DNA from: Achromobacter denitrificans NBRC 15125
GTDB lineage: Bacteria; Pseudomonadota; Gammaproteobacteria; Burkholderiales; Burkholderiaceae_B
Direction: 5' to 3'
Assembly (NCBI RefSeq): GCF_001571365.1
Contig: NZ_BCTQ01000024.1
Location: 1 to 64,000, forward strand
Length of the DNA stretch: 64,000 nucleotides
The translations under genes and the position numbers were made by a program. The number at the start of each line of letters is the position of its first letter. Position 1 is the stretch's first letter. Positions 17,919 to 39,170 of the stretch are shown here, one piece after another. Under the pieces are notes generated by a model, which saw only the letters and a program-made list of their open reading frames with translations, made no database searches and was not told where the DNA came from.

Positions 17919-18064
17919 GGGGCGCCGGAGCGCGCGGTCAGGGCCGGCGCGGGATCAGGGTCGCAAATATTAGCTGGATATGAACCGCGGCCGCCACGGT
18001 TTTTTTGGGGCTGGCGCCCCGGCTGCGGTAGCATCGATGGCCCGAACGCGCCCAGGAGCTTGCC

Positions 18065-18670
18065 TTGAACGCCAACACTGAATTTTCCGACGGCCTGGCC
18101 CGTTGCCGCTGGGTGGATACCTCCGCCGAATACATGGCCTACCACGACCGCGAGTGGGGCTATCCCGAGGCCGACGACCGCGCGCTGTTCGAGCAGCTGT
18201 GCCTGGAAGGGTTCCAGTCCGGCCTGAGCTGGCGCACCATCTTGTCCAAGCGCGAGGCGTTCCGGCGCGGCTTCGCCGGGTTCGATCCCGCCAAGGTGGC
18301 GAGATTCGGCGAGAAAGAGGTGCTGGCGCTCCTGGCCGACGCCGGCATCGTGCGCCATCGCGGCAAGATCGAGGCCGTGATCAACAACGCGGCGCGGGCG
18401 CTGGAGATGATCGAGCGCGAGGGCTCGCTGGGCGCCTACTTGTGGCGCTTCGAAGCCCCGCCGGGCGCGCCGTCCACCTACGGCGCGTCCACGTCGGCGC
18501 AATCCGAGGCGCTGTCCAAGGCGCTGAAGAAGCTGGGCTGGAAGTTCGTCGGGCCCACCACGGTCTACGCCTTCATGCAGTCGGTGGGCATGGTGAACGA
18601 CCACAGCCCCGACTGCCATTGCCACGCGGCCAGCGAAAAGGCGCGCAAGGCGTTCAAGCGGTCCGCGTAG
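18065..18670 (+). CDS. tag: DNA-3-methyladenine glycosylase I
   Basis: Base-excision repair enzyme that removes 3-methyladenine from DNA; 201 residues, the normal length. Seen: N-terminal Cys and WVDTSAEYMAYHDREWG (zinc ligand Cys and His), FEQLCLEGFQSGLSWRTIL holding the catalytic Glu region, and the C-terminal HSPDCHCH zinc ligands. TTG is the start: AGGAG lies 6 nt upstream and no ATG fits the conserved N-terminus. Ends 4 nt from the convergent membrane phosphotransferase gene. Confidence 0.93.
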   Translation: MNANTEFSDGLARCRWVDTSAEYMAYHDREWGYPEADDRALFEQLCLEGFQSGLSWRTILSKREAFRRGFAGFDPAKVARFGEKEVLALLADAGIVRHRGKIEAVINNAARALEMIEREGSLGAYLWRFEAPPGAPSTYGASTSAQSEALSKALKKLGWKFVGPTTVYAFMQSVGMVNDHSPDCHCHAASEKARKAFKRSA

Positions 18671-18674
18671 CGGT

Positions 18675-20579
18675 TCAGGCCGCCGCTTCGGGAACCACGG
18701 CGCCCGGCAGGCAGTAGCGTCCTTCCCGGTAGGCCCAGCTGGGCCACAGCGCGTGCGCGAGCGCCTCGGTGGCCAGGGCCGGGTCCAGGTCCACGGGCGC
18801 GTAGTCTTCAGGCGCGGTGTAGCGGTACTGCACCGGCGGCTTGTTGGGTGCCAGCACCAGCAGGTCGTTTTCCTTCAGATATCCATAGGTGTTGTCGTAC
18901 TGCATGATGGCCCGGCCCGGCGTGCTGCGGGTCAGGTCGTGCCCGATCATGGGGTGCTCGGTATCCACGCCGATCAGCGACAGCAGGGTGGGCGGCAGGT
19001 CGATCTGGCTCATCAGGCGGTCGTCGCGGCGCGCCTCGACGCCGGCGCCCAGGATCACGGCGGGGATGTGGAAGTGGCGCACCGGCACCAGGCTGGCGCC
19101 GAAGACCCGCGAATCGTGGTCGGCGGCCACCAGGAACACGGTGTTTTCCCAGTAGGGGGCGGCCTTGGCGCGCTCGAAGTAGCGGCCCAGCGCCCAATCG
19201 GCGTAGCGGACCGTGTTCTCCACGGTGGCCGGATTGCCTTCGGTCTGGATGCGGCCCGCCGGATACTCCCAGGGCGAGTGGTTCGACACGCTGAAGGCGA
19301 GCGTGAAGGTGGGGCGGTCGCCGTCTTCGCGCAGCAGCCGGTCCAGCTGGGTGAACATGTCCTCGTCCGAGGCGCCCCAGGTGCCGACGAAGGCGGGGTC
19401 GACGAAATCGGCGCGGTCCACAATTTCCTTGAAGCCGTTGCCCAGGAAGAAGCCCTTCATATTGTCGAAGTGCGATTCGCCGCCGTAGATGAAGCGCGAA
19501 TGGTAGCCATGGCGGCCGAGCAGGTCGGCCAGCGAGAAAAAGCCCCGTTGCGAGCGCGGCAGCTTCAGCACGGCCTGCGCCGGCGTGGGCAGGAAGCCCG
19601 TGACCACCGCCTCCAGCCCCCGCACCGAGCGGGTGCCCGTGGCATAGCAGCGCGTGAAGGCCCAGGCCTCGCGCGCCAGCGCGTCGAGTTCCGGCGTCAG
19701 GTTGGCGCCGCCCAGGCCGGCGCAGTACTGCGCGCCCAGGCTTTCTTCCAGGATGATCACGAGATTGAGCGGCCGCGCCGTCTTGCGGGTGGCCGGCTGG
19801 TGGTGCAGGCTGGGGAAATCGGGGTTGGCGGGCGGGTCGGGCAGGCCGGCCTGCGCCAGCACCAGCCCTTGCATCCTGGCGTCGTCCATGCCGCCGTAGA
19901 CGGCCGAGGCGGACTTCTCGTTCTTCATGCTGTAGATGGCGTAGAAGACGTTGTAGAGCGAGTTCAGCGCCAGGGTGTTGAGCATGCCGTCCGAGGAATA
20001 GGCTACCGAGGACGGGTTGATCGGGCGGTGTCCGAGGGTGCCGCGGATGGCCAGGATCACGATGGCGAGGATCGCCAGGCTGGCGAGCGGCATTTGCCAC
20101 CACGTGAGTTGCGCGTCCGGCCGGGCGTCGCCGAACAGGCCGTAGGCGCCCCAGCCGATCAGCGCCAGGGCGCCCAGGCCGCCCAGCAGCGCCGTCTTGT
20201 AGCCGCGCCAGAGCATGCCGGAGACTTCGCGGGGGTGTTTCAGGTATTCGACGAACAGGCGGTTGGGACGGGTGTCGTATTCCAGGATGAAGGGCGGGCT
20301 GGCCACTTCCAGGAACGCCAGCAGGATGAACGCGACCAGGTACCAGTAGCCGGCCAGCGTGGCGGCCAGCGGAAAGTGCCCCAGCAGGGGCGACAGCACG
20401 GCCGGCAGCGCCGCCAGCACGGCGATCTGGTGGGCATCGATACGCAGGCCCCCCAGAAGCAGGGGCAGCAGGCCCCCGGCATCGCGCACCCGCTTGAACT
20501 GCCAGGCGGCCAGCGCCAGGCGGCTGAGCGTCAGCAGCGCAAATGCCGCCACCACGAAAATCAAGGTCGAATGCCGCAT
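18675..20579 (-). CDS. LTA synthase-type membrane sulfatase/phosphotransferase
   Basis: Inner-membrane enzyme of the alkaline phosphatase/sulfatase superfamily, 634 residues: about five transmembrane helices in the first 190 residues, then a periplasmic catalytic domain. Seen are the first metal-ligand segment VIILEESLGAQY, the Thr nucleophile in CYATGTRSVRGLE, and the late metal site VAADHDSRVFG. Enzymes of this architecture move phosphoglycerol or phosphoethanolamine to glycans; in a Gram-negative cell the acceptor could be an osmoregulated glucan or surface polysaccharide. The ATG at 20579 is used because GGAGG precedes it; the frame is open further upstream. Unusual detail: many Fe/Mn ligands expected are kept, so it is probably active. 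Confidence 0.82.
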   Translation of the reverse strand: MRHSTLIFVVAAFALLTLSRLALAAWQFKRVRDAGGLLPLLLGGLRIDAHQIAVLAALPAVLSPLLGHFPLAATLAGYWYLVAFILLAFLEVASPPFILEYDTRPNRLFVEYLKHPREVSGMLWRGYKTALLGGLGALALIGWGAYGLFGDARPDAQLTWWQMPLASLAILAIVILAIRGTLGHRPINPSSVAYSSDGMLNTLALNSLYNVFYAIYSMKNEKSASAVYGGMDDARMQGLVLAQAGLPDPPANPDFPSLHHQPATRKTARPLNLVIILEESLGAQYCAGLGGANLTPELDALAREAWAFTRCYATGTRSVRGLEAVVTGFLPTPAQAVLKLPRSQRGFFSLADLLGRHGYHSRFIYGGESHFDNMKGFFLGNGFKEIVDRADFVDPAFVGTWGASDEDMFTQLDRLLREDGDRPTFTLAFSVSNHSPWEYPAGRIQTEGNPATVENTVRYADWALGRYFERAKAAPYWENTVFLVAADHDSRVFGASLVPVRHFHIPAVILGAGVEARRDDRLMSQIDLPPTLLSLIGVDTEHPMIGHDLTRSTPGRAIMQYDNTYGYLKENDLLVLAPNKPPVQYRYTAPEDYAPVDLDPALATEALAHALWPSWAYREGRYCLPGAVVPEAAA

Positions 20580-24523: not shown

Positions 24524-25150
24524 TCAGAGGCTGGCGCGGTCCGGCGGGTGTCCGGCCAACGCGTCCCAGGCGCACATCGCCTGCCTGGCGACGGCCTGCA
24601 AGGTCTTGCGGGTCGCGCCGTCGCGCGCCTGGATCGACATGCCGTGCAGCACGGTGGCGTAGAACGCGGCCAGGCTCTTGAGATCCGCGCCGGCGGGCAG
24701 CTCGCCGCCGGCGGCGCCCGCATGCAGCCGGGCCAGGATGCGGCCCTGCATCTCGCGGCGGTTGTCGCCCAGGAAGTCGCCCACGCTGGCGTGGTTCACG
24801 CAGCCCGATGGCGCGCCCAGCACGATCATGCAGCCGGGAGGATGGCCGGGCGCGGTGAAGCGTTCGGCGGAGGCCAGCAGCATGGACTGGACGGCTTCGC
24901 GGGCGGTGGGCGCATCCTGCAGCGCGCGCCTGCCCGAGCTGCCTTCGGTGTCGCGGTAGAGCTCGACCGCTTCGCGGAACAGGCTTTCCTTGGAGCCGAA
25001 GGCGCCATAGAGGCTGGGCGAATTGATCCCCATCGCTTCCGTCAGATCGGTCAGCGATGCTCCTTCATATCCCTTCGACCAGAACACATCCATGGCCTTG
25101 CGCAAGGCCTGGGCTCGGTCGAAGTTCCGGGGACGCCCACGTTCTGCCAT
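24524..25150 (-). CDS. TetR-family repressor
   Basis: TetR-type regulator, 208 residues. The HTH is in NFDRAQALRKAMDVFWSKGY ... TDLTEAMGINSPSLYGAFGS (about 7-55); the rest is the helical ligand-binding and dimer domain. It is divergent from the SDR gene, with a long palindrome close to that gene's start, the classical arrangement for a repressor of the neighbouring enzyme. In the same direction it is followed after 11 nt by the diguanylate cyclase. Confidence 0.9.
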   Translation of the reverse strand: MAERGRPRNFDRAQALRKAMDVFWSKGYEGASLTDLTEAMGINSPSLYGAFGSKESLFREAVELYRDTEGSSGRRALQDAPTAREAVQSMLLASAERFTAPGHPPGCMIVLGAPSGCVNHASVGDFLGDNRREMQGRILARLHAGAAGGELPAGADLKSLAAFYATVLHGMSIQARDGATRKTLQAVARQAMCAWDALAGHPPDRASL

Positions 25151-25230
25151 AGGCTCGATTTTACCTGTCGCGCGAATTTTGTGTTGATCGATAAAAAAAT
25201 GGTTGACGGGCCGGCGTCGGGTCGGCGAAT

Positions 25231-25256
25231 ATATTTGTACTGACCACTACAAATAT
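25231..25256. promoter_or_regulatory. 26-bp TetR-type operator
   Basis: Arms ATATTTGTA and TACAAATAT are perfect 9-bp inverted repeats around CTGACCAC, and the dyad continues inside (GTANTG..CANTAC). It ends 11 nt before the SDR ATG, after a TTGACG (25203-25208) that could be the -35, so bound repressor would block the SDR promoter. Confidence 0.7.
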
Positions 25257-25267
25257 GGATTCCGACC

Positions 25268-26014
25268 ATGCCTGAATTGACTGGAAAAATCGCTTTCGTG
25301 ACCGGCGGCAGCCGGGGCATCGGCGCGGCCATCGTGCGCCGCCTGGCGGCCGATGGCGCCAACGTGGCGTTCACCTACGTGAGCCCATCCTCCGCCGAAG
25401 GCGCTCAGGCGCTGGCGCGCGAACTCTCCACGGATGGGCGCCGCGCCCTCGCCATCCAGGCCGACGCCTCGGACGCCGACGCCGTCAGGCAGGCGATCGA
25501 GCAAGCCATCGCCGAACTCGGTCCGGTGGACGTGCTGGTCAATAACGCGGGCGTGTTCATTACCGGCCCCATCGGCGAAGCCCGCCTGGACGACTACGAA
25601 CGGACGATGGATATCAACGTGCGCGCGCCCTTCGTCGCGATCCAGGCTGCCCAGGCCGTCATGCCCGACGGCGGCCGCATCATCAACATCGGCAGTTGCC
25701 TCGCCGCGCGCGCCGGCCGCCCGGGCGTGGCGCTGTACTCCGCGAGCAAGGCGGCGTTGGTCGGCCTGACGCAAGGCCTGGCCCGCGACCTGGGCCCGCG
25801 CGGCATCACCGTCAACGTGGTGCACCCCGGCCCGATCGACACCGACATGAATCCCGCCGACGGCGCGCACGCGGGCGACCTGGTCGCGGTGCTGGCCCTG
25901 CCGCACTACGGCGAAACCCGCGACATCGCCGGCATGGTCGCCTTCCTGGCCGGCCCGGAAGGGCGCTACATCACGGGCGCGAGCCTGGCGGTAGACGGGG
26001 GCTTCGCGGCCTGA
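25268..26014 (+). CDS. SDR-family oxidoreductase
   Basis: Classical short-chain dehydrogenase/reductase of 248 residues, annotated in relatives as 3-oxoacyl-ACP reductase-like. Cofactor motif VTGGSRGIGAAIV near residue 10, NNAG in the core, catalytic Ser in INIGS and YSASKAA (Tyr/Lys), and a C-terminal ITGASLAVDGGFAA. NADP(H) preference is plausible from the Arg after the glycine motif. Substrate not determinable; the TetR pairing suggests detoxification of a reactive carbonyl or quinone. Confidence 0.88.
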   Translation: MPELTGKIAFVTGGSRGIGAAIVRRLAADGANVAFTYVSPSSAEGAQALARELSTDGRRALAIQADASDADAVRQAIEQAIAELGPVDVLVNNAGVFITGPIGEARLDDYERTMDINVRAPFVAIQAAQAVMPDGGRIINIGSCLAARAGRPGVALYSASKAALVGLTQGLARDLGPRGITVNVVHPGPIDTDMNPADGAHAGDLVAVLALPHYGETRDIAGMVAFLAGPEGRYITGASLAVDGGFAA

Positions 26015-26540: not shown

Positions 26541-27329
26541 CTAACGCGCCTGCCTTGTCGCCGCAGCTGCGCCGCCGCCGGTTTCGGCAGCCTGCGCGGA
26601 ACGCTTCTTCAGTTCCAGGATGACCTGGCCGCCCGACAGGATGTCAGTCTGGACGGCGATCCGGGCCGCCTGGCTGTCGCGGTTGCGCATGGCGGTGAGC
26701 AGCGAGTAGTGGCCGTCGATCATGTCGCGGCCTCCCTCTGAATAGCACTGGGCGATCAGCGGGCCCATCTTCAGCCAGAGGCGCTCCAGGATGCTCAGGA
26801 GCACCGGCATATTGGCGATGCGACAGTATTCGAAATGGAAGTGCTGGTTCAGGCTGATGGCGGCGAGGACTTCGCCGGCGGCCAGCGCCTGTTCGTTCTG
26901 TTCGATCAGCGCTTCCATGCGCGCGATGTCTTCGGCGGAGGCGACCTCGGCGGCCCGGGCGGCGGCCATGCCTTCCAGTTCCAGCCGGATGTCGCGGATT
27001 TCCAGGTATTCGGGGAGGGTGACTTCGGCTACCCGGATGTCGCGCGCGCTGCGCATGACGAGCGCGCCGTCCTGCACGAGGCGCAGCACGCCGTCGCGCA
27101 CGGGGGTAATGCTGGTGCCCAGTTCCGCCGCCAGTTCCCGGATGCGCAGCCGGTCTCCGGGCCGGAGCTGGCCTTCCATCAGGGCGCTGCAGATCTTGGT
27201 GTAGACCCGGTTGCCCATGCTTTCGTACTGCATGGCCGAAAAACGGGCCTCGGCCTGCGGGGGCAGTTGAGTGGGCGCGAGAGGCTCGGCGGAGGGCGGG
27301 ATAGGAGGGCTTGCGCTCGGATGATGCAT
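26541..27329 (-). CDS. GntR/FCD-family regulator
   Basis: GntR-family regulator with an FCD ligand domain, 262 residues from the ATG at 27329 (a TTG directly precedes it). A Pro-rich N-terminal tail (about 35 residues) precedes the winged helix (QLRPGDRLRIRELAAELGTS; TPVRDGVLRLVQDGALV). The FCD domain follows, with metal/carboxylate-site histidines in NQHFHFEYCRI and DGHYSLLTAM. It is divergent from the kinase-transporter-deacetylase run and is its likely regulator. The palindrome TGATGCATCA overlaps its start codon, matching a longer copy before the kinase gene. Confidence 0.9.
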   Translation of the reverse strand: MHHPSASPPIPPSAEPLAPTQLPPQAEARFSAMQYESMGNRVYTKICSALMEGQLRPGDRLRIRELAAELGTSITPVRDGVLRLVQDGALVMRSARDIRVAEVTLPEYLEIRDIRLELEGMAAARAAEVASAEDIARMEALIEQNEQALAAGEVLAAISLNQHFHFEYCRIANMPVLLSILERLWLKMGPLIAQCYSEGGRDMIDGHYSLLTAMRNRDSQAARIAVQTDILSGGQVILELKKRSAQAAETGGGAAAATRQAR

Positions 27330-27331
27330 CA
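27322..27331. promoter_or_regulatory. GntR operator candidate over the gntR start
   Basis: The perfect palindrome TGATGCATCA spans the start codon of the GntR gene. The same core occurs in the longer dyad at 27506-27524, suggesting one protein recognises both and represses its own gene. Confidence 0.5.
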
Positions 27332-27505
27332 AGGTAGGTGCCTGAAGTCATAAGTCCGCCACGGGAAACGCTGTCCGGGCGGGCGGAGGGCGCGCTTTCG
27401 GCCCAGCTCCTACTTTATCAGTCTTATAGGAAAAACAAGCGCTTGAGAGCGGCTTTGCCGGGATTTCCATCTCCGGGATTACACCGATGTCGTAATTCCG
27501 CGATA

Positions 27506-27548: not shown

Positions 27549-28652
27549 ATGCTGTCCGACGCCGCCGCCGGCATGGAAGAACCGGTGGACGCCCTGCTGG
27601 TCAATTCGCCTCCGCCGATCCGGCAGGAGGATGCCGAACGCGTGGCCGGGGCCTGCTACCCCGGTTATGCGCAGTGCGTTCCGCTCTCGGGGGAGCGCGA
27701 CATGAACTTCCGGATCAGCCGCAAGGACGGCGCATCCTTGACGCTGAAGTTCATCAACGGCGCGGAAAGCCCGGACGAAACGCGGATGCAGATCGCGGTG
27801 CTGAAGCACCTGGAAGCGCGCCAGACGGGCCTGGGCACGCTGCGGGCGCCGCATCACCAGCCCGCGGACGCGGCCGGCCTGTCGGCGGATCCGGATATCC
27901 GGCCGGGCAGCGACGATGGCGCGGCCCTGCAGGATTGGCTGGACTTCCGCGTTCCGGACCTCGCGGGCGCGGTGCGGGTGCGGGCCTATGGCTTCCTGCC
28001 GGGCCGCCCCGGCGCGGCCATGGCGGCCGGGCCGCAATCCTGGCAGGCGGTGGGCAGGGCGGCGGGGCGGCTGGACGCGCAGCTTGTCGATTTCGAGCAT
28101 CCGGCGGCGCATCGGCAGTTCCTGTGGGACGCCTGTCAGGTGGCGCGGGTGCGGCCGATGCTGGACGCGGTGGAGTCGCCCGACGAGCGGGCGCGCATCG
28201 CCGCCTACCTGGACGTCTTCGAGCGGGACGTGGTGCCGGCGCTGGCGGCGCTGCCCAGCCAGATCATCCATAACGACCTGTCTCCCAGCAACATCCTGGT
28301 GAACGAGGCGGGCACGGACCTGGCGGGCATTCTGGATTTCGGCGACATGGTCCACGCGCCGCGCATCGCCGAGGTCGCGATCGCCGCGTCCTATCAGATG
28401 ACGGCGCCCGGCCGTCCCCTGGACGTGCTGTCCGCCGTGGTGGCGGGCTACGAGTCGGTGCTGCCGCTGACGCCGGACGAACGGCGCCACGTGCTGGACC
28501 TGGTGCTGGCCCGCCTTGTGCAGCGCATGGCGATCCCGTCCTGGCGCGCCCTGCGCTTTCCCGGCAACGGCGCCTACATCCTGCGCAGCCGCGCGGCGGC
28601 GACGGCGCTGTTCAACGAGCTGTACGACGAATGGAGCCGGGGCGCGCGCTGA
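27549..28652 (+). CDS. APH-fold small-molecule kinase (hydroxylysine-kinase-like)
   Basis: Aminoglycoside-phosphotransferase-fold kinase, 367 residues. Catalytic loop IIHNDLSPSNILV (HxDxxxxN) and metal site GILDFGDMVHAP are intact. The next gene encodes a PLP enzyme of the phospho-lyase subgroup; in animals and some bacteria this pairing (HYKK with PHYKPL, or fused proteins) handles hydroxylysine or related amino-alcohols. I therefore infer ATP- or GTP-dependent phosphorylation of a hydroxyl next to an amine. ATG 27549 is chosen over TTG 27534 because GGGA sits 10 nt before it. A homoserine-kinase-like role is the alternative. Confidence 0.75.
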   Translation: MLSDAAAGMEEPVDALLVNSPPPIRQEDAERVAGACYPGYAQCVPLSGERDMNFRISRKDGASLTLKFINGAESPDETRMQIAVLKHLEARQTGLGTLRAPHHQPADAAGLSADPDIRPGSDDGAALQDWLDFRVPDLAGAVRVRAYGFLPGRPGAAMAAGPQSWQAVGRAAGRLDAQLVDFEHPAAHRQFLWDACQVARVRPMLDAVESPDERARIAAYLDVFERDVVPALAALPSQIIHNDLSPSNILVNEAGTDLAGILDFGDMVHAPRIAEVAIAASYQMTAPGRPLDVLSAVVAGYESVLPLTPDERRHVLDLVLARLVQRMAIPSWRALRFPGNGAYILRSRAAATALFNELYDEWSRGAR

Positions 28653-28708
28653 GCGCGTCCCGCATGGAGTTGCGCGATGCCGCGCAAGAAACGAGCGAAG
28701 GACATGCG

Positions 28709-29989
28709 ATGACGGTGAACGGCAGCAATACGCAGCAGGACCTGCTGGCGCGGCGCAAGGCGCTGGGGCCGGCCTACCGGTTGTTCTATGAAGAGCCGGT
28801 GGAACTGGTGCGCGGCGAGGGCGTGTGGCTGTACGACGCGTCTGGGCGCCGCTATCTGGATGCCTACAACAACGTGCCGGTGGTCGGTCATGCCAATCCC
28901 GCCGTGGTAGAGGCGCTGACGCGCCAGGCGTCGGTGCTCAACACGCACACGCGCTATCTGCACGACGGCGTGGTGCGCTACGCCGAGCGCCTGCTGGCGC
29001 TGTTCCCGAGCGCGCTCGACACCGCCATGTTCACCTGCACGGGCAGCGAGGCCAACGATCTGGCGCTGCGCATCGCTTTCGAGGCGACGGGGCGGCGCGG
29101 CGTGATCGTGACCGGCAACGCCTATCACGGCGTGACGATGGCGCTGGCCGACGTGTCGCCGTCGCTGCGTCCGGTCGGCGCGCACGTCCGCACCATTCCG
29201 GCGCCCTGCCTGCTGGAAGGCACGCCGCAGGAAGTCGCGGCCAGGTTCGCCGCCAGCGTGGACGCGGCGGCCGACGAGCTGGAAGCCGCCGGCACGCCGG
29301 TGGCCGCGCTCATGGTCGACACGGTGTTCGCCAGCGATGGCCTGTACGCCGATCCCGGCGAGGCGCTGACCCTGGCGGCCGAACGCGTGCGCGCCCGGGG
29401 CGGGCTGTTCATCGCCGACGAAGTGCAGGGTGGCTTTGCCCGCATGGGCGTCAACTGGTGGGCATTCCAGCGCGACAGCGTGATCCCGGACATGGTGTCC
29501 ATGGGCAAGCCCATGGGCAACGGACATCCGATAGGCGGCCTGGTGGCGCAGTCGCGCCTGGTCGAGGCCTTCGGCCGCGAATGCCGTTATTTCAACACCT
29601 TCGGCGGCAATACCGTGTCGTCGGCCGTGGGCCTGGCCGTGCTGGACGAGTTGGCGCGCATGGACGCGCCGGCCCACGTCGAGCGCGCCGGCCAGGCCAT
29701 GGGGCAGGCGCTGGCCGATCTGGCGCGGCGTCACGAATGCCTGGGCGCGGTGCGCGGACACGGCCTGTACTGGGGGGTCGACATCGTGTCGCCCGACGGC
29801 GATGCGGCGCATGCCGCCCGCCTGACCCAGCGCATCGTCAACGGCTTGCGCCAGTCCGGCGTGCTGCTGGGCACCGCGGGCCGCAATGCTTCCACGCTCA
29901 AGATCCGCCCGCCGCTGGTGTTCCGGCCCGAGCATGCCGCCATCCTGGCCGCGGCCTTGGACGAGCAGTGCCGGGCCGCGCTGCGCTGA
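28709..29989 (+). CDS. Class III PLP enzyme, phospho-lyase subgroup
   Basis: Fold-type I PLP enzyme of aminotransferase class III, 426 residues. The PLP lysine is in SMGKPMGNGHPIGG; the cofactor-binding Asp is in LFIADEVQGGFAR. The segments VGHANPAVVEAL and VLNTHTRYLHDGVVRYAERL closely follow ethanolamine-phosphate phospho-lyase and 5-phosphohydroxylysine phospho-lyase, which eliminate phosphate and ammonia rather than transaminate. Coupled with the kinase just upstream, this predicts conversion of a phosphorylated amino-alcohol to an aldehyde. ATG 28709 follows GAAGGA; an upstream ATG at 28664 lacks a ribosome site. Ordinary transamination is not excluded. Confidence 0.8.
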   Translation: MTVNGSNTQQDLLARRKALGPAYRLFYEEPVELVRGEGVWLYDASGRRYLDAYNNVPVVGHANPAVVEALTRQASVLNTHTRYLHDGVVRYAERLLALFPSALDTAMFTCTGSEANDLALRIAFEATGRRGVIVTGNAYHGVTMALADVSPSLRPVGAHVRTIPAPCLLEGTPQEVAARFAASVDAAADELEAAGTPVAALMVDTVFASDGLYADPGEALTLAAERVRARGGLFIADEVQGGFARMGVNWWAFQRDSVIPDMVSMGKPMGNGHPIGGLVAQSRLVEAFGRECRYFNTFGGNTVSSAVGLAVLDELARMDAPAHVERAGQAMGQALADLARRHECLGAVRGHGLYWGVDIVSPDGDAAHAARLTQRIVNGLRQSGVLLGTAGRNASTLKIRPPLVFRPEHAAILAAALDEQCRAALR

Positions 29990-30081
29990 GCCGCGCCAAC
30001 ACGCCGATACCACAACACAACAACAAGACGTTTCACAAGATCCGTCCCACTCCACCACGTCGAATACGCAAGGGAATCATC

Positions 30082-31674
30082 ATGCGCAACACTAAGTTCT
30101 TCAGGAAAACCGCACTGAATGTCCTGCTGGCCGGCGCCGCCGTCCTGGGGGCAGGCACGGCCGCCATGGCGCAGACGCACGGCGGCACGCTCAATGTGAT
30201 CCTGAATCCCGAGCCGCCCATCCTGATGCTGGGCCTGAACCAGCAGACGCCCACGCAGATCGTCGGCGGCAAGATCTACGAGAGCCTGCTGACCTACGAT
30301 TTCAAACTGAATCCCCAGGCCAGCCTGGCCAAGTCGTGGAACGTGTCGGCCGACGGCCTGACCTACACCTTCGAGTTGCAGGAAGGCGTGACCTGGCACG
30401 ACGGCAAGCCGTTCACGGCTGACGACGTGCTGTTTTCGCTCAAGGAATACCTGCCCGAGGTGCATGCGCGCGCCCGCAACAACCTGAGCCATGTGGCGAG
30501 CATCGAGAAGACCGGTCCGCTGACCATCGTCATCACGCTGAAGGAGCCGTATTCGCCCTTCATCAACGCCTTCGAGGTGTCGTCCGCGCCCATCGTGCCG
30601 GCCCACATCTACAAGGGCACGGATTTCCGCAACAACCCGGCCAACCAGACGCCGATCGGCACCGGACCGTTCAAGTTCAAGGAATGGCAGCGCGGCCGCT
30701 TCGTGCTGCTGGAGCGCAACGACAAGTACTGGCGCCCCAATCTGCCTTACCTCGACAAGATCTACTTCCAGGTGATCCCGGACGCCAATTCGCGCCTGGT
30801 GGCGCTGGAAAGCGGTTCGGTGCAGGTGGCCAGCTTCGGCGATATCGACTTCGCCTTCCTGCCGCAGATCAAGGCCAACCCCCAGCTGGAAGTCACGACC
30901 CAGGGCTATGAGTTCACCGGCTCGCACGCCGCGATCGAGCTCAACCATCGCGCCAAGCCGCTGGACGACGCGCGCTTCCGCCAGGCCATCCAGTACGCCA
31001 TCGACCGCAAGTTCCTCGCCGACCGCATTTTCTTCGGCGCCGCGCGTCCGGCCACGGGCCCGGTGTCGTCGGTGACGCGTTTCTACGACGACAAGCTGCC
31101 GCGCTACGACTACGACCCGAAGAAGGCCATCGCGCTGCTCGACGAAATGGGCCTGAAGCCCGACGCCAGCGGCAAGCGCGCCAGCATCAAGCTGCTGGGC
31201 CTGCCGTATGGCGACACCTGGACCAAGGTGTCGGAGTACGTGAAGAACTCGCTGTCCAAGGTGGGCGTGGAAGTGGTGCTGGAAAGCACCGATGCCGGCA
31301 GCTGGGCCCGGCGCTACTCCAACTGGGAATTCGATACGGTGGTCGAGTACCTGTACCAGTACTCGGACCCGGCGCTGGGCGTGGATCGCACCTATCGTTC
31401 GGACAACATCCACAAGGGCGGCTACGGCACCAACACCTCGGGCTACGTGAACAAGGACGTGGACGCCGCGCTGATCGCCGCCGCGAAGGAAGTGGACCCG
31501 GTCAAGCGCCAGCAGCTGTATTCGCAGGCCTACGGCCAGGTCGCCAAGGATGCGCCGACCGCGTGGCTGGTCGAACTGGCCTTCCCCACGATCACCAACA
31601 AGAAGGTCAAGAACGTGACGACGTCCGCCATCGGCGTGGCGGAAAGCTTCGCGACGACCTACATCGAGAAGTAA
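30082..31674 (+). CDS. Peptide-type ABC importer substrate-binding protein
   Basis: Periplasmic binding protein of the oligopeptide/nickel/opine class (SBP family 5), 530 residues. Sec signal peptide of about 30 residues ending AAMA before QTHGGTLNV. Family signature SWNVSADGLTYTFELQEGV and DDARFRQAIQYAIDRKFLAD are clear. No lipobox, so soluble. It leads a complete importer with two permeases and a fused ATPase. Such receptors bind peptides, opines or modified amino acids; the neighbouring enzymes favour an amino-alcohol or acetylated amine. Confidence 0.9.
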   Translation: MRNTKFFRKTALNVLLAGAAVLGAGTAAMAQTHGGTLNVILNPEPPILMLGLNQQTPTQIVGGKIYESLLTYDFKLNPQASLAKSWNVSADGLTYTFELQEGVTWHDGKPFTADDVLFSLKEYLPEVHARARNNLSHVASIEKTGPLTIVITLKEPYSPFINAFEVSSAPIVPAHIYKGTDFRNNPANQTPIGTGPFKFKEWQRGRFVLLERNDKYWRPNLPYLDKIYFQVIPDANSRLVALESGSVQVASFGDIDFAFLPQIKANPQLEVTTQGYEFTGSHAAIELNHRAKPLDDARFRQAIQYAIDRKFLADRIFFGAARPATGPVSSVTRFYDDKLPRYDYDPKKAIALLDEMGLKPDASGKRASIKLLGLPYGDTWTKVSEYVKNSLSKVGVEVVLESTDAGSWARRYSNWEFDTVVEYLYQYSDPALGVDRTYRSDNIHKGGYGTNTSGYVNKDVDAALIAAAKEVDPVKRQQLYSQAYGQVAKDAPTAWLVELAFPTITNKKVKNVTTSAIGVAESFATTYIEK

Positions 31675-31686
31675 GCGGGAGAACGC

Positions 31687-32667
31687 ATGATGAGGTGGCT
31701 GCGGCCCTTACTTTCGGTGCTGGGTAAATCGGTCACGGTGCTGATCGCAGTCGCCGTCATCAACTTTGCCCTGGTCCACATGGCGCCCGGCGACCCGGTC
31801 AGCGTGCTGGCCGGCGAAGCCGGATCGTCCGACGCGAAGTTCCTGGAGCAGTTGCGCCGGGAGTTCAAACTCGACCAACCGCTCGTGGTGCAGCTGGGAA
31901 GCTATCTGCAATCCATCGCCACGCTGGACCTGGGTTACAGCTATCGGCAGCAGCGTCCCGTCTGGGACATGATCGCCGACCGCTTGCCGGCCACGCTGGT
32001 GCTGGCGATTCCGGCGTTCCTGATCGCCCTGCTGGGCGGGATACTGCTGGGCGCGCTGGCCAGCCGATACCGGGGATCATGGCTGGACTCCGCCATCACG
32101 GCGGCGTCGCTGGCGTTCTACGCCACGCCCATCTTCTGGGTCGGCCTGCTGCTGGTGCTGGGGTTCTCGGTCAGCCTGGGCTGGCTGCCGGCCTTCGGCT
32201 ACGAAACCATGGGTTCGTCGCTGACCGGCATATCGCGAATGCTGGACATCGCCAAGCACGCCTTATTGCCGGTCGTCACGCTGGCGGGCTTCAACCTGGC
32301 GGTCTACACGCGCCTGGCGCGGGCCTCCATGAACGAGATCCAGGGGGCCGATTTCGTCAAGACGGCCTGGGCCAAGGGCCTGTCGTCCGGTCGGGTGGTC
32401 TGGGTGCACCAGTTGCGCAACGCGGTCCTGCCGGTCATCACCCTGGCGGGCATGCAGGCCGGGCAGCTGATCGGCGGGTCGGTGCTGGTGGAAACCGTGT
32501 TCGCGTGGCCGGGCATCGGCCGGCTGGCCTTCGATGCCTTGCAGCAGCGCGACTATCCCGTCCTGTTGGGGGTGTTTTTCTGCACGTCGGTGGTGGTGGT
32601 CGCGTTCAACCTGCTGACCGACCTGATCTACCGCCTCGTCGATCCCCGCATGCAGAGTCAATCATGA
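31687..32667 (+). CDS. ABC importer permease, DppB type
   Basis: Inner-membrane permease of the peptide-type importer, 326 residues, six transmembrane helices. N-terminal VIAVAVINFALVHMAPGDPV is the DppB/OppB landmark (HMAPGDP); the coupling loop is FVKTAWAKGLSSGRVVWVHQ. Begins 12 nt after the binding-protein gene; two adjacent ATGs (31687, 31690) are possible starts. Its stop overlaps the next permease start (ATGA). Confidence 0.9.
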   Translation: MMRWLRPLLSVLGKSVTVLIAVAVINFALVHMAPGDPVSVLAGEAGSSDAKFLEQLRREFKLDQPLVVQLGSYLQSIATLDLGYSYRQQRPVWDMIADRLPATLVLAIPAFLIALLGGILLGALASRYRGSWLDSAITAASLAFYATPIFWVGLLLVLGFSVSLGWLPAFGYETMGSSLTGISRMLDIAKHALLPVVTLAGFNLAVYTRLARASMNEIQGADFVKTAWAKGLSSGRVVWVHQLRNAVLPVITLAGMQAGQLIGGSVLVETVFAWPGIGRLAFDALQQRDYPVLLGVFFCTSVVVVAFNLLTDLIYRLVDPRMQSQS

Positions 32668-33500
32668 AGTCATTGATCAAGCGATATTTCACCAATGCCG
32701 GCGCCGTGGTCGGGCTGGTCTGCCTGAGCGCCATCGTGCTGATGGCCCTGGGCGCCCACTGGCTCTATCCCCTCAATCCCTGGGATACCACCGAAGCGCC
32801 GTTCCTGCGTCCGTTTGAAGAAGCCGGCGCCTGGCTGGGAGCCGACTCCATGGGCCGCAACATCGCGGCGGGCATCGTGCACGGCGCGCAGGCCTCGCTG
32901 CTGGTGGGCGTGGTGGCGACGGTGGTGGCGGTGTTCATCGGCATGCTGATCGGCGTGCCGGCCGGGTATCTCGGCGGCCGCTGGGACGAGCTGCTGATGC
33001 GCGTGACGGAAATCTTCCAGACCATCCCCAGCTTTCTGTTCGCCATCGTGCTGGTGGCGATCTTCCAGCCGTCCTTCGGATCGGTCATCACCGCCGTGGC
33101 GCTGGTGAGCTGGCCGCCGATCGCGCGGCTGGTGCGCGCCGAATTCATGCGGGTCAAGGCCAGCGAGTTCGTGGAGGCCGCCACGGTGCAGGGCTATTCG
33201 CGCGCCCGCATCGTGTTCACCGAAATCCTGCCCAACTGCGTGTCGCCGCTGATCGTGATGGCCTCGCTGATGGTGGCCAACGCCATCCTGCTGGAAAGCG
33301 CCATCAGCTTCCTGGGCCTGGGCGATCCCAACCTGATGACCTGGGGCTATATGGTGGGCGCGTCGCGCACGTTCCTGCGGCTGGCCTGGTGGATGTGCCT
33401 GTTTCCGGGCGTCGCGATCTTCGTCACCGTGCTGGCGGTCAACCTGATGGGAGAGGGGCTCAACGATGCGCTCAATCCCCGTCTCCATCGCAAGGGGTGA
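32664..33500 (+). CDS. ABC importer permease, DppC type
   Basis: Second permease of the importer, 278 residues, six transmembrane helices. Landmarks: LGADSMGRNIAAGIVHGAQA near residue 55, the coupling loop FVEAATVQGYSRARIVFTEI, and SAISFLGLGDPN. Overlaps the first permease by 4 nt and is followed 3 nt later by the ATPase. Confidence 0.9.
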   Translation: MKSLIKRYFTNAGAVVGLVCLSAIVLMALGAHWLYPLNPWDTTEAPFLRPFEEAGAWLGADSMGRNIAAGIVHGAQASLLVGVVATVVAVFIGMLIGVPAGYLGGRWDELLMRVTEIFQTIPSFLFAIVLVAIFQPSFGSVITAVALVSWPPIARLVRAEFMRVKASEFVEAATVQGYSRARIVFTEILPNCVSPLIVMASLMVANAILLESAISFLGLGDPNLMTWGYMVGASRTFLRLAWWMCLFPGVAIFVTVLAVNLMGEGLNDALNPRLHRKG

Positions 33501-33503
33501 ACC

Positions 33504-35102
33504 GTGACGCCGTTGCTTCAGATTGAAAACCTGTCGATTTCGCTGCCGGCGGGCGGCGACCGCAAGTTGGCGGTGGACGACGTCAGCCTGACCTTGAACC
33601 CGCATGAAATCGTGTGCGTGGTGGGCGAGTCGGGATCGGGCAAGTCCACGTTGGCGCATGCCGTGCTGGGCCTGCTGCCGCGCGGCCTGCGGATCGCCGG
33701 CGGGGCGATCCGCCTGGGCGAACTGCAACTGGCCGGCATGTCGCTGGGCGAGTTGCGCAAGGTGCGCGGCAAGCGCATCGCCATGGTGTTCCAGGAGCCG
33801 CTCAGCGCGCTCAATCCGCTGATGCGCTGTGGCCGCCAGATCGGCGAGATGTTGCGCACGCACGGCATGCGCGATGCGGCCAAGGTGGAGGCGCGCGTCG
33901 CCGAGCTGCTGACGTCGGTGGGGCTGCCGGACCATGCCCGCATCGCCGATTCCTACCCTTATCAATTGTCGGGCGGGCAACGCCAGCGCGTCATGATCGC
34001 GATGGCCCTGGCGTTGGAACCCGATATCCTGATCGCGGACGAGCCGACCACGGCGCTGGACGTGACCACCCAGGCGCAGATCCTGGCGCTGATCAAGGAG
34101 ATCCAGCAGCGCAAGGGCCTGGCCGTGCTGTTCATCACGCACGACTTCGGCGTGGTGTCCGAAATCGCCGACCGCATCGTCGTGATGCAGGGCGGCAAGG
34201 TGGTCGAGTCCGGCGCGGCGCGGCAGGTGCTGCACGAGCCGCAGGCGGCCTACACGCAGTCGCTCCTGGCCGCGGTGCCGTCGTTCCGGCCGCCGCCCGC
34301 GATCGCGAGCCAGCCCGATCCCCTGCTGACGATCAAGGATCTGCGCAAGACCTATCTGCGCAAGGGCAAGTGGTTCGGCCCGGCCCAGCGCTTCCCGGCG
34401 GTCAAGGGCGTGTCGTTCGATATCCGGCGCGGCGAGACGGTGGGGCTGGTGGGCGAATCGGGCTCGGGCAAGTCGACCATCGGCCGCATGCTGGCCGGCC
34501 TGGTGTCGGCCGACGGCGGCGAGATGCGCCTGCGCGGGGCCGACCTGCTGGCTGAAGGCGCGTTCGCCGATCCGGCGCGGCGCCGTTCGGTGCAGATGAT
34601 CTTCCAGGACCCCTACGGTTCGCTCAACCCGCGCCATACCGTGGCGCGCATCCTGACGGGCGGCATGCGCCGCCATGGCATGTCGGCGGCCGCGGCCATG
34701 GACCGGGCGCGCGAACTGATGCGGCTGGTCAAGCTGGATCCGTCGGCGCTGGACCGCTATCCGCACGAATTCTCCGGCGGGCAACGCCAGCGGCTGGGCT
34801 TTGCCCGCGCCATCGCCGTGACGCCGGAGCTGATCGTGGCGGACGAGCCGGTGTCGGCGCTGGACGTTTCGGTGCAGGACCAGGTGCTGGCCATGCTGCG
34901 GCAATTGAAGCAGGAGCTGCGGCTGTCCATGCTCTTCATCACGCACGATCTGCGCGTGGCGTCGCAGTTGTGCGATCGCGTCATCGTGCTCAAGCATGGC
35001 GAGATCGTCGAGCAGGGCCCGACCGCCCAGGTCCTGGAGAATCCCCGGCACGAGTACACGCGCGAGCTGATCGCCGCGGTGCCCGGACGAAGCTGGAAAT
35101 AA
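33504..35102 (+). CDS. ABC importer ATPase, fused double nucleotide-binding domain
   Basis: Fused DppD-DppF-type ATPase, 532 residues. Domain 1 (about 1-260): [35 protein letters not shown]. Domain 2 (about 275-530): [35 protein letters not shown]. Both halves keep all catalytic motifs, so a single chain powers the two permeases. GTG start with AAGGGG upstream. Fused forms are common for glutathione- and opine-type importers. Confidence 0.92.
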
Positions 35103-35132
35103 ACACACCCACACGCTTTATAGGATCGCGCA

Positions 35133-36176
35133 GTGAAAGCCTTCATCTCCCCGACCCATGACGTGCCCTGGCCCGGCAATGCCATGATCCGTGGCTTGCT
35201 CAAGCAGCACCACGACCGCGCCGAGCGCAGCATCGAAATCCTGGCCGCGCTGCGCGACGACCTGCGCCTGGACTGCCGGTTCGTGCAGCGCGCCGCCGAG
35301 CGTCCCGTCGAATTGTTCGAAGTCCATGCGCCCGACTACCTGCACTACCTGGAAACCGCCTGGGATGAATGGTCCAAGGCGCCGGATGCCTCGTTCGAGG
35401 TGCGGCCGTACATCAACACCAACCGCTACTTTCCCACGCTGCGCACGCGCATCCCGGTGACGCTGGCCGGCCAGTACCTGGGCGACGGCGGCTCGCCGCT
35501 GGTCCAGGACGCCTGGGTCAATATGAACGGCAGCGTGGATACCGCGGTGGCGGCGGCCGACGCGATCATCGCGGGCGAGCGCAGCGCGTATGCGCTGCTG
35601 CGCCCGGCCGGCCACCACGCCATGCGCGACCTGGCGATGGGCGGCTGCCACATCGCCAACACCGCGATTGCCGCGCAGCGCCTGGCCAAGCGCTTTGGCC
35701 GCGTGGCCGTGCTGGACATCGACGTGCACCACGGCAACGGCACGCAGCAGATCTTCTACGACCGCGACGACGTGCTGACGGTGTCGCTGCACGGCAAGCC
35801 GGAAACGCTGTTCCCGTTCATCTGCGGCTATGCCGACGAGATCGGCACTGGCGCGGGCGAGGGCTACAACTGCAACCTGCCCATGGAAGGCGGCACGGCG
35901 ATCGACGGCTACCTCGGCCACTTCGACCGGGCGCTCCAGCGGATCAAGGATTTCGCGCCAGGCGCGCTGGTGGTGGCGGCGGGCTACGACACGTTCCGCC
36001 ACGATCCTTTCGGCAACCTCGATATCGACACGGCCGATTACGCGGTGCTGGGCGACCGCATCGCCCAGCTGGGCGTGCCCACCCTGTTCGTGCAGGAAGG
36101 GGGCTACAAGGTCGATACGCTGCGCGCCAACGTCAATTCGCTGGTGGAAGGCTATCTGACGCGCCAGGGGGCCTGA
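35133..36176 (+). CDS. Acetylpolyamine amidohydrolase-type deacetylase
   Basis: Zn-dependent deacetylase of the histone-deacetylase superfamily, 347 residues, cytoplasmic. Closest to acetylpolyamine amidohydrolases: HAPDYLHYLETAWDEW, RPAGHHA (general base His pair), DIDVHHGNGTQ (zinc Asp/His), VSLHGKPETLFPFICGYADE and AAGYDTFRHDP (second zinc Asp); QEGGY supplies the catalytic Tyr. Removes acetyl groups from amines such as acetylpolyamines or acetyl-lysine analogues. Sits after a peptide-type importer, so its substrate is probably imported. GTG start with AGGA upstream. Confidence 0.87.
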   Translation: MKAFISPTHDVPWPGNAMIRGLLKQHHDRAERSIEILAALRDDLRLDCRFVQRAAERPVELFEVHAPDYLHYLETAWDEWSKAPDASFEVRPYINTNRYFPTLRTRIPVTLAGQYLGDGGSPLVQDAWVNMNGSVDTAVAAADAIIAGERSAYALLRPAGHHAMRDLAMGGCHIANTAIAAQRLAKRFGRVAVLDIDVHHGNGTQQIFYDRDDVLTVSLHGKPETLFPFICGYADEIGTGAGEGYNCNLPMEGGTAIDGYLGHFDRALQRIKDFAPGALVVAAGYDTFRHDPFGNLDIDTADYAVLGDRIAQLGVPTLFVQEGGYKVDTLRANVNSLVEGYLTRQGA

Positions 36177-36177
36177 C

Positions 36178-36900
36178 ATGAGGACTGCCGAATCCGGGGC
36201 AGGCGCGGGCCGCGTCGTGCTGATCAGCGGCGCGAGCCGAGGCATCGGGCTGGCGCTGGCGCGCGAGTTGCTGGCGCACGGCTGGCGGGTATCCGCGGGA
36301 ACGCGCCAGCCCGTGGCGGCGCTGGCGGAATTTGGGGCCGACCGGTGCCATTGGTCGCCGTTCGACGCGCGCGATCCCGCAAGCGAGGCCGCCTGGGTGG
36401 CGGCTGCGCACGGCCATTTCGGCCGCATCGACGCCATCGTGCACAACGCCGGCATCCTGAGCGACAAGTCGGTGGTCGAGGCCAGCGACGAGGACTTCGA
36501 CGATATCTTCGCCGTCAACGTCAAATCGCCCATGCGCCTGACGCGGCTGGCATGGCCGCATTTGCGGGCCGCGCCGGAAGGCAAGGTGCTGGTCATCGCC
36601 TCGCTGGCCGGCAAGCGCGTGCGCGCGGCCGAAGGCGGGCTGTATTCCATGAGCAAGGCGGCCGCGCTGATGCTGGCCCATGGCATCCGCCATGCCGGCG
36701 AGCCGGACCGCATCCGTTGCACCGCGATCTGCCCGGGCTTCGTCGCCACCGATATGGCCGATGGCGTGGACGACTCCATCAAGGCGCAACTGACCCAGCC
36801 TCAGGAAGTGGCCCGCATCGCCCGGATGGCGCTGGAGCTTTCCGCCACGGCCAGTGTGGCGGAAATCCCGATCAGCTGGCGGGTGGAAACGGCGTTCTGA
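36178..36900 (+). CDS. SDR-family oxidoreductase
   Basis: Short-chain dehydrogenase/reductase, 240 residues: ISGASRGIGLALA near residue 15, HNAG, active-site SLAGKRVRAAEGGLYSMSKAA. It begins one base after the deacetylase stop, so it is the last gene of the same operon. Within the proposed amino-alcohol pathway it could reduce or oxidise the aldehyde released by the phospho-lyase; substrate is otherwise unknown. Confidence 0.87.
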   Translation: MRTAESGAGAGRVVLISGASRGIGLALARELLAHGWRVSAGTRQPVAALAEFGADRCHWSPFDARDPASEAAWVAAAHGHFGRIDAIVHNAGILSDKSVVEASDEDFDDIFAVNVKSPMRLTRLAWPHLRAAPEGKVLVIASLAGKRVRAAEGGLYSMSKAAALMLAHGIRHAGEPDRIRCTAICPGFVATDMADGVDDSIKAQLTQPQEVARIARMALELSATASVAEIPISWRVETAF

Positions 36901-36937: not shown

Positions 36938-38167
36938 TCAGCTCAGTACCTTGCCCTTCGTTTCGGGCAGCAATAGCGCCGTGACGATGACGATGGCGTA
37001 GGCGCCCGTGGCGAATGCGCCGATGGCCCATCCCAGGCCATGCGTCTGCGAAAGAAACCCCACCAGACTGGGGAACAGCGCTCCGATGCCCCGGCCGAAG
37101 TTGTACGCGAAACCTTGCCCGTTTGCGCGCACGTCCGTCGGGAACAGCTCGGTCAGGTAGGCACCGATACCGCTGAATATCCCGGATGCCGCGAAACCCA
37201 GCGGAAAGCCAAGGACCAGCATCGCGTCGTTGCTCAGCGGCACGAGCGTGTACACATAAACTGTCAGCGCCGACAGAACGGAGAAAATCAGCAGGTTGGC
37301 CCGGCGCCCGAGCTTGTCGGCGGAATACGCGCCGGCGATGTAGCCGCAGAACGAGCCCACGATGATGACCATCAGATAGCCGCCGGTGCCCAGAACGGAC
37401 AACTGGCGCTCCGTCTTGAGGAAGGTGGGCAGCCAAGTGGTAATGGCGTAATAGCCGCCCTGGACGCCGGTGCACAGTAATGCGGTGACCATCGTGGTTT
37501 TCAGCAGGGAAGGGGAGAAGATCTTCCAGAAGGAGGGCCGTTCCGCCGAGCTCTGCGCCTGGGCGCGCGCGCGCTGGAAGACTTCGGGTTCCGGGACGTG
37601 CTTGCGGATGTAGATGACGAGGAACGCGGGGGCGACGCCGATCCAGAACAGCGTGCGCCACGCCCATTCGGGAGGCAGCACCGAGAACGCGATGGTGTAG
37701 AGAATCGCGGCAGCGCCCCAGCCTACCGCCCAGCCGCTTTGCACCGTGCCGACCGCCTTGCCGCGGTGCTGCGCGCGAACGATTTCCCCCATCAGCACCG
37801 AACCGACGGCCCATTCTCCGCCGAAGCCCAGCCCTTGCAGCGCCCGCAGGATCAGGAGTTGTTCGAAATTCTGCGCGAAACCGATGGCCACCGTGCAGGC
37901 GGAGAACCAGAGAATGGTGATTTGCAGGATGCGCACGCGGCCGTAGCGGTCCGCCAGGATGCCCGCCAGCCAGCCGCCGATCGCCGAGAACAGTAGCGTT
38001 ACGGTGCCAAGCATGCCGGCCTGGCCCTTTTCGATGCCCCACAGGCTGATGAGTGTGGAGATCACGAAGGTGAACACCATGAAATCCAGCGCGTCTATCG
38101 CCCAGCCGCCGAAGGCGCCGATGAACGTCCGGCGCTCGGTCTTGTTCATTTCCCTGTACCACTGCAT
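36938..38167 (-). CDS. MFS transporter, aromatic-acid/sialic-acid type
   Basis: Major facilitator carrier of 409 residues, 12 transmembrane helices. The loop 2-3 motif DRYGRVR and loop 8-9 SADKLGRR are present. The N-terminal half (FMVFTFVISTLISLWGI; LGFGGEWAVGSVLMGE) is that of the metabolite:H+ symporter group that includes aromatic-acid carriers. ATG 38167 is preferred: AGGAG lies upstream at good spacing, and nine extra residues from 38194 add nothing conserved. It follows, in the same direction, a pyrone-dicarboxylate-hydrolase-like gene, suggesting uptake of its substrate. Confidence 0.87.
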   Translation of the reverse strand: MQWYREMNKTERRTFIGAFGGWAIDALDFMVFTFVISTLISLWGIEKGQAGMLGTVTLLFSAIGGWLAGILADRYGRVRILQITILWFSACTVAIGFAQNFEQLLILRALQGLGFGGEWAVGSVLMGEIVRAQHRGKAVGTVQSGWAVGWGAAAILYTIAFSVLPPEWAWRTLFWIGVAPAFLVIYIRKHVPEPEVFQRARAQAQSSAERPSFWKIFSPSLLKTTMVTALLCTGVQGGYYAITTWLPTFLKTERQLSVLGTGGYLMVIIVGSFCGYIAGAYSADKLGRRANLLIFSVLSALTVYVYTLVPLSNDAMLVLGFPLGFAASGIFSGIGAYLTELFPTDVRANGQGFAYNFGRGIGALFPSLVGFLSQTHGLGWAIGAFATGAYAIVIVTALLLPETKGKVLS

Positions 38168-38234
38168 GTGTCGACTCCTGATTCTTCTTGCCAAGACGCG
38201 CCGCGGCGGGCGCGCGGGTGAAGGTGAATGGGCC

Positions 38235-39140: not shown

Positions 39141-39170
39141 GCTCGTCTCCAATGGCAAGGTGCCGATGGT

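Follow-up and report, generated by a model that had tools for sequence, protein, structure and literature searches.

What is broken down by a bacterium that encodes a small-molecule kinase directly upstream of a pyridoxal phosphate (PLP) enzyme of apparent phospho-lyase type? Kinase-phospholyase pairs are known from a few special cases: hydroxylysine in animals, phosphoethanolamine in brain and an actinobacterial compartment. We took up the question for a 64,000-nucleotide stretch of Achromobacter denitrificans NBRC 15125 (contig NZ_BCTQ01000024.1, positions 1 to 64,000; the window), in which a sequence-only reading had proposed a degradation module for an amino alcohol consisting of one kinase gene and one PLP-enzyme gene. 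The adjacency of the two genes holds, while the proposed extent was too short: the unit runs on to position 36900 with an importer, a deacetylase and a short-chain dehydrogenase/reductase (SDR). We judge it fairly probable that these genes together form an operon for the catabolism of an N-acylated amino alcohol, which would be imported, deacylated, phosphorylated and then stripped of phosphate and ammonia by elimination; we infer both the reactions and their sequence. Most telling for the identity of the substrate are the importer and the deacetylase, neither of which the earlier reading saw.

The PLP enzyme groups with phospho-lyases

Membership of the PLP enzyme in PF00202 (209.5 bits, cut-off 30.5) is a property common to transaminases, and public names for such proteins read 'aspartate aminotransferase family'. 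The enzyme could therefore be an ordinary omega-transaminase next to an unrelated kinase, for example an aminoglycoside-resistance kinase, the more so as APH(2'') structures appear among the weak profile and fold matches of the kinase. Searches of the PDB by sequence point elsewhere. The best matches were 5g4i, the A1RDF1 phospholyase (E 2.2e-115), and 6tor, human ethanolamine-phosphate phospho-lyase (7e-89), and the next, a dialkylglycine decarboxylase, reached only 2.9e-43. A predicted model of the enzyme (mean pLDDT 73.8) ranked 5g4i and 6tor first by fold as well, with 47% identity to A1RDF1 in the fold alignment.

Two trees, both quick reconstructions supported by SH-aLRT only and without bootstrap, placed the enzyme in the same company. 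The first (93 rows) joined the phospholyases, ETNPPL and A1RDF1 in a single clade with SH-aLRT 100; it took in 13 further class III proteins from the host genome and was built after removal of most Pseudomonas rows, four short rows and another twelve named ones, mainly Variovorax. The second (98 rows), in which most groups were thinned and six host paralogs omitted, added five PHYKPL records to four of ETNPPL and recovered this clade, now including PHYKPL, again at 100. The window lyase lay apart from the host class III paralogs (13 in the first tree, seven in the second) and from dialkylglycine decarboxylase. A tree with ETNPPL, PHYKPL, AGXT2 and omega-transaminases had been suggested as the check on the earlier claim of a phospho-lyase rather than an omega-transaminase; AGXT2 is in neither of ours and PHYKPL in the second only, and in this form the check bears the claim out.

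Residue conservation is consistent with the trees. At 34 positions the phospholyase residue is conserved in at least 95% of the 82 rows compared and is rare (20% or fewer) among 14 other class III rows. Among them N54, N55, R82, W251 and N296 occur in 82/82 and K398 in 81/82 phospholyase rows, a set that does not include PHYKPL; N54 is replaced in one of the five PHYKPL records. These clade-specific residues may bind the phosphate group, and the catalytic Lys267 and Asp237 are intact. The two segments that had been quoted as characteristic of phospho-lyases are both present, and they differ in value: N-T-H-T-R-Y-L is diagnostic, as it carries the Arg82 just mentioned, whereas 'VGHANP' is only partly so, its G-H being shared by 8/8 other class III rows. 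Taken together, the trees, the diagnostic residues and the drop in PDB scores after the second match lead us to reject an ordinary transaminase and support, at the level of sequence, a PLP enzyme of the phospho-lyase kind.

The trees say less about the substrate. ETNPPL and PHYKPL are sister groups, and their nearest bacterial row in the second tree is not the window enzyme but a long-frame apparent fusion (L211). As the two animal enzymes are sisters, the substrate of the window lyase cannot be read from orthology.

The kinase and its link to the lyase

The kinase belongs to the APH family (PF01636, 73 bits, cut-off 23.2) and has intact HND....N and DFGD motifs; HND....N and D.GD were found in 17/17 aligned kinases (17 of the 19 first offered, L040 and L070 being left out). 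Its sequence had no match in the PDB at the default cut-off, and 185 at E up to 10, the best 60 of which were all protein kinases with E 0.0039 or worse. A profile search did better and gave 6ef6 as the closest solved kinase (E 3.4e-9), titled a microcompartment-associated aminopropanol kinase. By fold 6ef6 ranks sixth, after a homoserine kinase and amicoumacin kinases, and those best fold matches decide nothing.

Genomic linkage is more informative. For this analysis 147 loci were entered, and the duplicate L074 and L079, for which no match was kept, were dropped to give 145 distinct loci; L133, a copy of L020, had been left out earlier. An APH-fold kinase lies within 2.5 kb of the lyase in 127 of the 133 loci that have at least 2.5 kb of flank on both sides. 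The six without one at this distance are L064, L165, L167, L178, L186 and L206, and in L165, L178 and L186 a kinase match lies farther away. In addition, the two proteins match opposite ends of a family of fused proteins, NF004799 (PRK06148; 1015 positions): the kinase aligns at 9-324 (204.7 bits) and the lyase at 583-1011 (433.3 bits). The cut-off is 1128 bits, set for the fused length, and both proteins, encoded here by two separate genes, fall below it. NF004800 is matched at opposite ends in the same way.

A spacing of 56 bp, the linkage in 127/133 loci and the fused family uphold the view that this is a kinase/PLP-enzyme pair of the HYKK/PHYKPL-like kind. The linkage and the fused family also lead us to reject a resistance kinase that happens to stand beside an unrelated gene, and together with the evidence on the lyase they make the combination of an omega-transaminase and an unrelated kinase highly improbable.

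The operon and its settings in relatives

The eight genes from 27549 to 36900 run in the order kinase, lyase, binding protein, permease, permease, ATPase, deacetylase and SDR (Table 1). The kinase more likely starts at the ATG at 27549 than at the alternative TTG at 27534 and stops at 28652; the open reading frame (ORF) of the PLP enzyme extends from the ATG at 28709 to the stop at 29989. Judged by ORF coordinates, the gaps downstream of the pair measure 1 to 92 bp, with one 4-bp overlap. The position of the divergent regulator is conserved in L015-L019 and L125-L132, and the nearest named relative found was Achromobacter veterisilvae, 96% identical across the lyase.

Table 1. Genes of the proposed operon and its divergent regulator, with window coordinates.
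Feature	Coordinates	Strand	Evidence
APH-fold small-molecule kinase, proposed amino-alcohol kinase	27549..28652	+	PF01636, NF004799
Class III PLP enzyme, phospho-lyase clade	28709..29989	+	PDB matches, trees, residues, predicted fold
ATP-binding cassette (ABC) substrate-binding protein, Dpp/Gsi/Nik type	30082..31674	+	NCBIfam below cut-off, best GsiB-like 193 bits vs 594
ABC permease, Opp/Dpp/Nik type	31687..32667	+	NF045470 296.8 bits, cut-off 350
Second ABC permease, Opp/Dpp type	32664..33500	+	NF045476 255.3 bits, cut-off 350
ABC ATPase, two ATP-binding halves, DppDF-like	33504..35102	+	NF008453 475 bits, exceeds cut-off 408
HDAC-fold deacetylase, acetylpolyamine amidohydrolase (APAH) type	35133..36176	+	PF00850 230 bits; PDB 6phr, 9gkz, 3men
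SDR	36178..36900	+	PF00106 145 bits; 1 bp past deacetylase gene
GntR/FCD-type regulator, divergent from operon	26541..27332	-	PF07729 FCD 78.4 bits, PF00392 GntR 46.1 bits

The deacetylase has the HDAC fold, and its closest solved relatives by sequence are APAHs, the best PDB matches (6phr at 8.6e-75, 9gkz and 3men) all being named acetylpolyamine amido/aminohydrolase; the protein had no NCBIfam match. As PF00850 has four matches in the 6.7-Mb host genome, a chance match within a 20-kb interval has a probability of about 1%. Abutting the operon end on the minus strand (36938-39158) are genes for an MFS transporter of aromatic-acid/sialate-like kind and an amidohydrolase_2 protein, neither of which had a match in the L015-L019 stretches. 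A divergent TetR regulator and SDR at 24524-26014 recur upstream in L015-L017 and not in the L018 and L019 stretches, so that they probably lie outside the module.

The pair was followed through several samples. The first set of 68 loci was biased to close relatives by the peptide patterns used, and three of the loci (L080-L082) are not phospholyases. A family search (E up to 1e-90) found 49 phospholyase matches in 41 of 268 genomes, host included; five of these (G039, G002, G022, G030 C16 and G013 C7) were equated with L015-L019 from their coordinates. A phylum search (E up to 1e-85) found a phospholyase relative in 42 of 398 genomes, host included, with 58 matches besides the window, from which 40 stretches covering 41 matches were taken. 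Settings were labelled A1, A2, A3 and B by the analyst from gene context. The 49 family matches comprise 26 beside an APAH and a Dpp importer, 16 of type B, and seven other or cut-short loci (L131, L133 and L163-L167). Where 8 kb or more of flank is available on each side (86 loci, a sample biased to close relatives), an APAH is present in 44 and an APAH with an importer permease in 43.

Importer, APAH, kinase and lyase recur across Burkholderiales in several arrangements: that of the window, an importer-first type, one with the importer on the opposite strand (nine family loci: L140, L143, L148, L151, L153, L155, L158, L159 and L162) and that of Alcaligenes. The importer-first type, seen in Variovorax, Curvibacter, Cupriavidus, Comamonas and Polaromonas, begins with the importer, usually followed by a 2-hydroxyacid dehydrogenase and an omega-aminotransferase (PRK06105, 715 over 517 bits; one scanned) and often by a first APAH, and continues with an EamA transporter, a GntR regulator, a second APAH, kinase and lyase. 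The order in Alcaligenes (L074) is importer, thiamine pyrophosphate (TPP) enzyme, APAH, PuuC-like aldehyde dehydrogenase (636 bits, cut-off 850), SDR, kinase and lyase. A 64% relative of the window SDR occurs in a Comamonas module (L077).

The host carries a second island with an APAH, a GntR-like regulator and a Dpp-type importer (L218, host contig C11, 136001-156000; positions 2209-18963). Two of its enzymes have counterparts in the Alcaligenes module, a TPP enzyme (62% identical) and a PuuC-like aldehyde dehydrogenase (68%); there are also an AllC-like hydrolase and, recognised by eye, TRAP-like transporter genes. The island holds parts that are missing from the window operon. Another host APAH lies near a class III aminotransferase gene (L219, host contig C17, 6000-18000; positions 4191-7583).

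None of the 16 type-B loci has an APAH or a Dpp importer, and 15 carry an ArgE/DapE-type deacylase in place of the APAH (L135, L137, L139, L141, L142, L144-L147, L149, L150, L152, L157, L160 and L161). This deacylase (PRK06837, 677 over 376 bits; one scanned) adjoins the kinase in the four loci read (L135, L139, L142 and L161); in three of these loci the next genes encode a MocR-like regulator and an MFS transporter (families scanned for L142 only). Relatives of the type-B deacylase (73-74%) stand beside the pair in L192 and L193, from other families of the phylum. Given the APAH settings and the 15 of 16 type-B loci, a deacylase with kinase and lyase is a repeated theme, realised with two unrelated deacylase folds. 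In L131 two nitrilase-like genes, recognised by eye, surround the pair, perhaps a further amide hydrolase feeding it.

Eight family genomes have two copies, and in six of these the copies differ in type, one being A and the other B. Types A1 and A3 share no genome among the 41; within the genus, 1.6 overlaps would be expected and the probability of none is 0.13, so the non-overlap carries no weight. The groupings of A3 with B (84) and of A1 with A2 (94) in the first tree are weak and absent from the second.

Farther afield, L182, from a genome of the same class, combines the pair with two permeases that score below their cut-offs, one PotH-like (172 bits) and one PotC-like (185 bits), and with an SBP_bac_8 protein, an SDR and a succinate-semialdehyde dehydrogenase (TIGR01780, 690 over 646 bits). 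A binding-protein gene precedes the kinase in L174 (SBP_bac_8; one scanned) and L181 and was not seen in L175 of the same genus, whose lyases form their own branch (100, second tree). Near the pair in several lineages (L166, L185, L187, L191, L198 and L201) lies a gene whose start, judged by eye, is that of a HAD-type hydrolase. One protein filed under the fungus Rhizopus arrhizus (P0010) is 90% identical to the window lyase; its contig is 2.5 kb long, and the sequence is probably Achromobacter contamination.

Candidate substrates and known systems

In the pathway that we propose, the Dpp-type ABC importer would take up an N-acylated amino alcohol, the APAH-like deacetylase would release its amine, and the APH-fold kinase would phosphorylate the hydroxyl next to that amine. 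The PLP enzyme would then form an aldimine with the amine and eliminate phosphate, and hydrolysis of the imine would yield an aldehyde and ammonia. Dehydrogenases, either the operon SDR or aldehyde dehydrogenases elsewhere in the genome, could finish the aldehyde.

Our leading guess for the substrate is a hydroxylated diamine, for instance 2-hydroxyputrescine, from which 4-aminobutanal would form; the oxidation product of this diamine, 4-amino-3-hydroxybutyrate, is the other option and would lead to succinic semialdehyde. We favour 2-hydroxyputrescine because of the APAH, because relatives add an omega-aminotransferase, a PuuC-like aldehyde dehydrogenase, Pot-like permeases and succinate-semialdehyde dehydrogenase, and because the diamine is present in relevant genera: it is reported from Burkholderia, Cupriavidus and Ralstonia in the portions of PMC10385936 and PMC7857480 consulted. 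The full proposal, that Burkholderiales import N-acetyl-2-hydroxyputrescine or a close relative, deacetylate it by the APAH, and convert it by phosphorylation and elimination to 4-aminobutanal, or via 4-amino-3-hydroxybutyrate to succinic semialdehyde, is tentative and, as a whole, rather unlikely. If true, it would supply a catabolic counterpart to the 2-hydroxyputrescine found in betaproteobacteria. Excerpts of the open-licence literature, including PMC10385936, PMC7857480 and PMC11998418, yielded no degradation route for this diamine, which does not prove that none is described.

Several observations weigh against this proposal. HDAC-fold enzymes can act on other amides and Dpp-type importers carry many solutes, and the activities of the pathway enzymes are predictions. 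The window-type APAHs and the APAH1 and APAH2 of other types form separate branches in a tree and need not be orthologous; in 15 of 16 loci type B has another deacylase in place of the APAH, the close relative L131 has the pair without APAH or importer, and L164 and L172 combine the pair with a Dpp-type importer but gave no APAH match. In L182 the ATPase is MetN-like, not PotA-like. The window operon itself contains neither an omega-aminotransferase nor an aldehyde dehydrogenase; the best host match to the omega-aminotransferase of relatives is just 40% identical, while PuuC-like dehydrogenases are encoded elsewhere in the host, that of the second island being the 68% relative of the Alcaligenes enzyme. 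The host genome has no IucA/IucC siderophore synthetase and hence no sign of an alcaligin-type use of 2-hydroxyputrescine, and none of its six Ring_hydroxyl_A proteins was assigned to a putrescine/alcaligin link. Nor does it have EutB, and for this reason ethanolamine is a possible substrate.

The same kinase-lyase chemistry could indeed act on a simple amino alcohol, ethanolamine or 1-amino-2-propanol, either free or as an amide, and give acetaldehyde or propanal. Aminopropanol is made possible by 6ef6, the best solved relative of the kinase profile, and the RMM loci discussed below have a comparable gene content. All 24 Pseudomonas loci of the first set encode an ethanolamine-permease-like protein beside the pair (TIGR00908, 332.9 bits, cut-off 381.8; one scanned). 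The sampled lyases of this permease type branch with A1RDF1 (SH-aLRT 99 in the first tree, 98 in the second), and the window lyase falls outside that branch in both; a homologue of the permease was found in 0/13 window-type loci tabulated. Window-type lyases, moreover, have Y23, R24, D210, R293 and V142 where the Pseudomonas type and A1RDF1 agree on S, P, E, M and N, and an APAH with a peptide-type importer would be unexpected for free ethanolamine. On this evidence a simple amino alcohol is a possible, if somewhat improbable, substrate. Type B has the five window-type residues in common with the window lyase, and the animal enzymes differ from both bacterial types at most of these positions, with R24 shared by most PHYKPL. 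As a means of assigning the substrate these positions gave hints only.

Another candidate is 5-hydroxylysine or a derivative of it, N6-acetylated or peptide-bound, which would be converted to 2-aminoadipate semialdehyde as in animals. The animal HYKK/PHYKPL precedent makes it possible (work cited in the part of PMC8154272 available); a Dpp-type importer would suit collagen peptides, and ArgE/DapE deacylases and APAH might suit N-acyl amino acids. In the second tree, though, PHYKPL is no closer to the window lyase than ETNPPL is, and according to the sections of PMC12930750 seen, Pseudomonas fluorescens uses hydroxylysine through lysine routes. We therefore think hydroxylysine an unlikely substrate.

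Whichever substrate applies, the importers and deacylases around the pair differ, and four or more distinct settings can be told apart in the 41 family and 42 phylum genomes counted above. These settings and the two-copy genomes suggest that amino alcohols are degraded by a general route that serves several substrates. The kinase-phospholyase principle is already known, from animals and, through the title of the aminopropanol kinase structure and the RMM loci, from bacteria. New, as far as our searches reach, is that the pair repeatedly comes with further genes: an APAH and a Dpp-type importer in Burkholderiales, ArgE/DapE deacylases in a related group. Packaging with an importer and a polyamine-type deacetylase hints at a further food molecule, and the APAH setting offers a concrete and cheap way to ask whether hydroxylated polyamines have a dedicated route.

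Among known systems, the animal HYKK with PHYKPL/ETNPPL resembles the window pair in joining a kinase to a class III PLP phospho-lyase, and the lyases share one clade. The comparison made here is between the lyases. The window operon adds an importer, an APAH and an SDR. The principle was reportedly established in animals by Veiga-da-Cunha in 2012, and bacterial fusions are said to have led to that discovery. This animal work is cited in PMC8154272 and PMC13149127, as far as the parts seen of each go. In the fused proteins NF004799/PRK06148 and NF004800/PRK06149 the window kinase corresponds to the N-terminal and the lyase to the C-terminal part; the window differs in having two separate genes and in missing the stretch between the matched parts. 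Arthrobacter A1RDF1 (PDB 5g4i/5g4j) is the best PDB match by sequence and by fold, but sits with the Pseudomonas permease type and is unlike the window lyase at residues 23, 24, 142, 210 and 293.

The microcompartment aminopropanol kinase 6ef6, the closest solved kinase by profile, presumably belongs to an RMM locus. Such loci hold a phosphotransferase and, as in the gene sets described here, an aminotransferase, an SDR and a GntR regulator, and are interpreted as serving amino-alcohol degradation, according to the portion of PMC4207490 consulted. The window differs in having a Dpp-type importer and an APAH instead; no microcompartment shell gene was among the neighbouring proteins given to Pfam, although no search was aimed at shell genes. 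Finally, the NF049939 system likewise uses a class III PLP lyase that releases ammonia (PMC8154272, in the part seen), and differs in its much weaker match to the window enzyme (152.6 bits, cut-off 525) and in having no kinase step.

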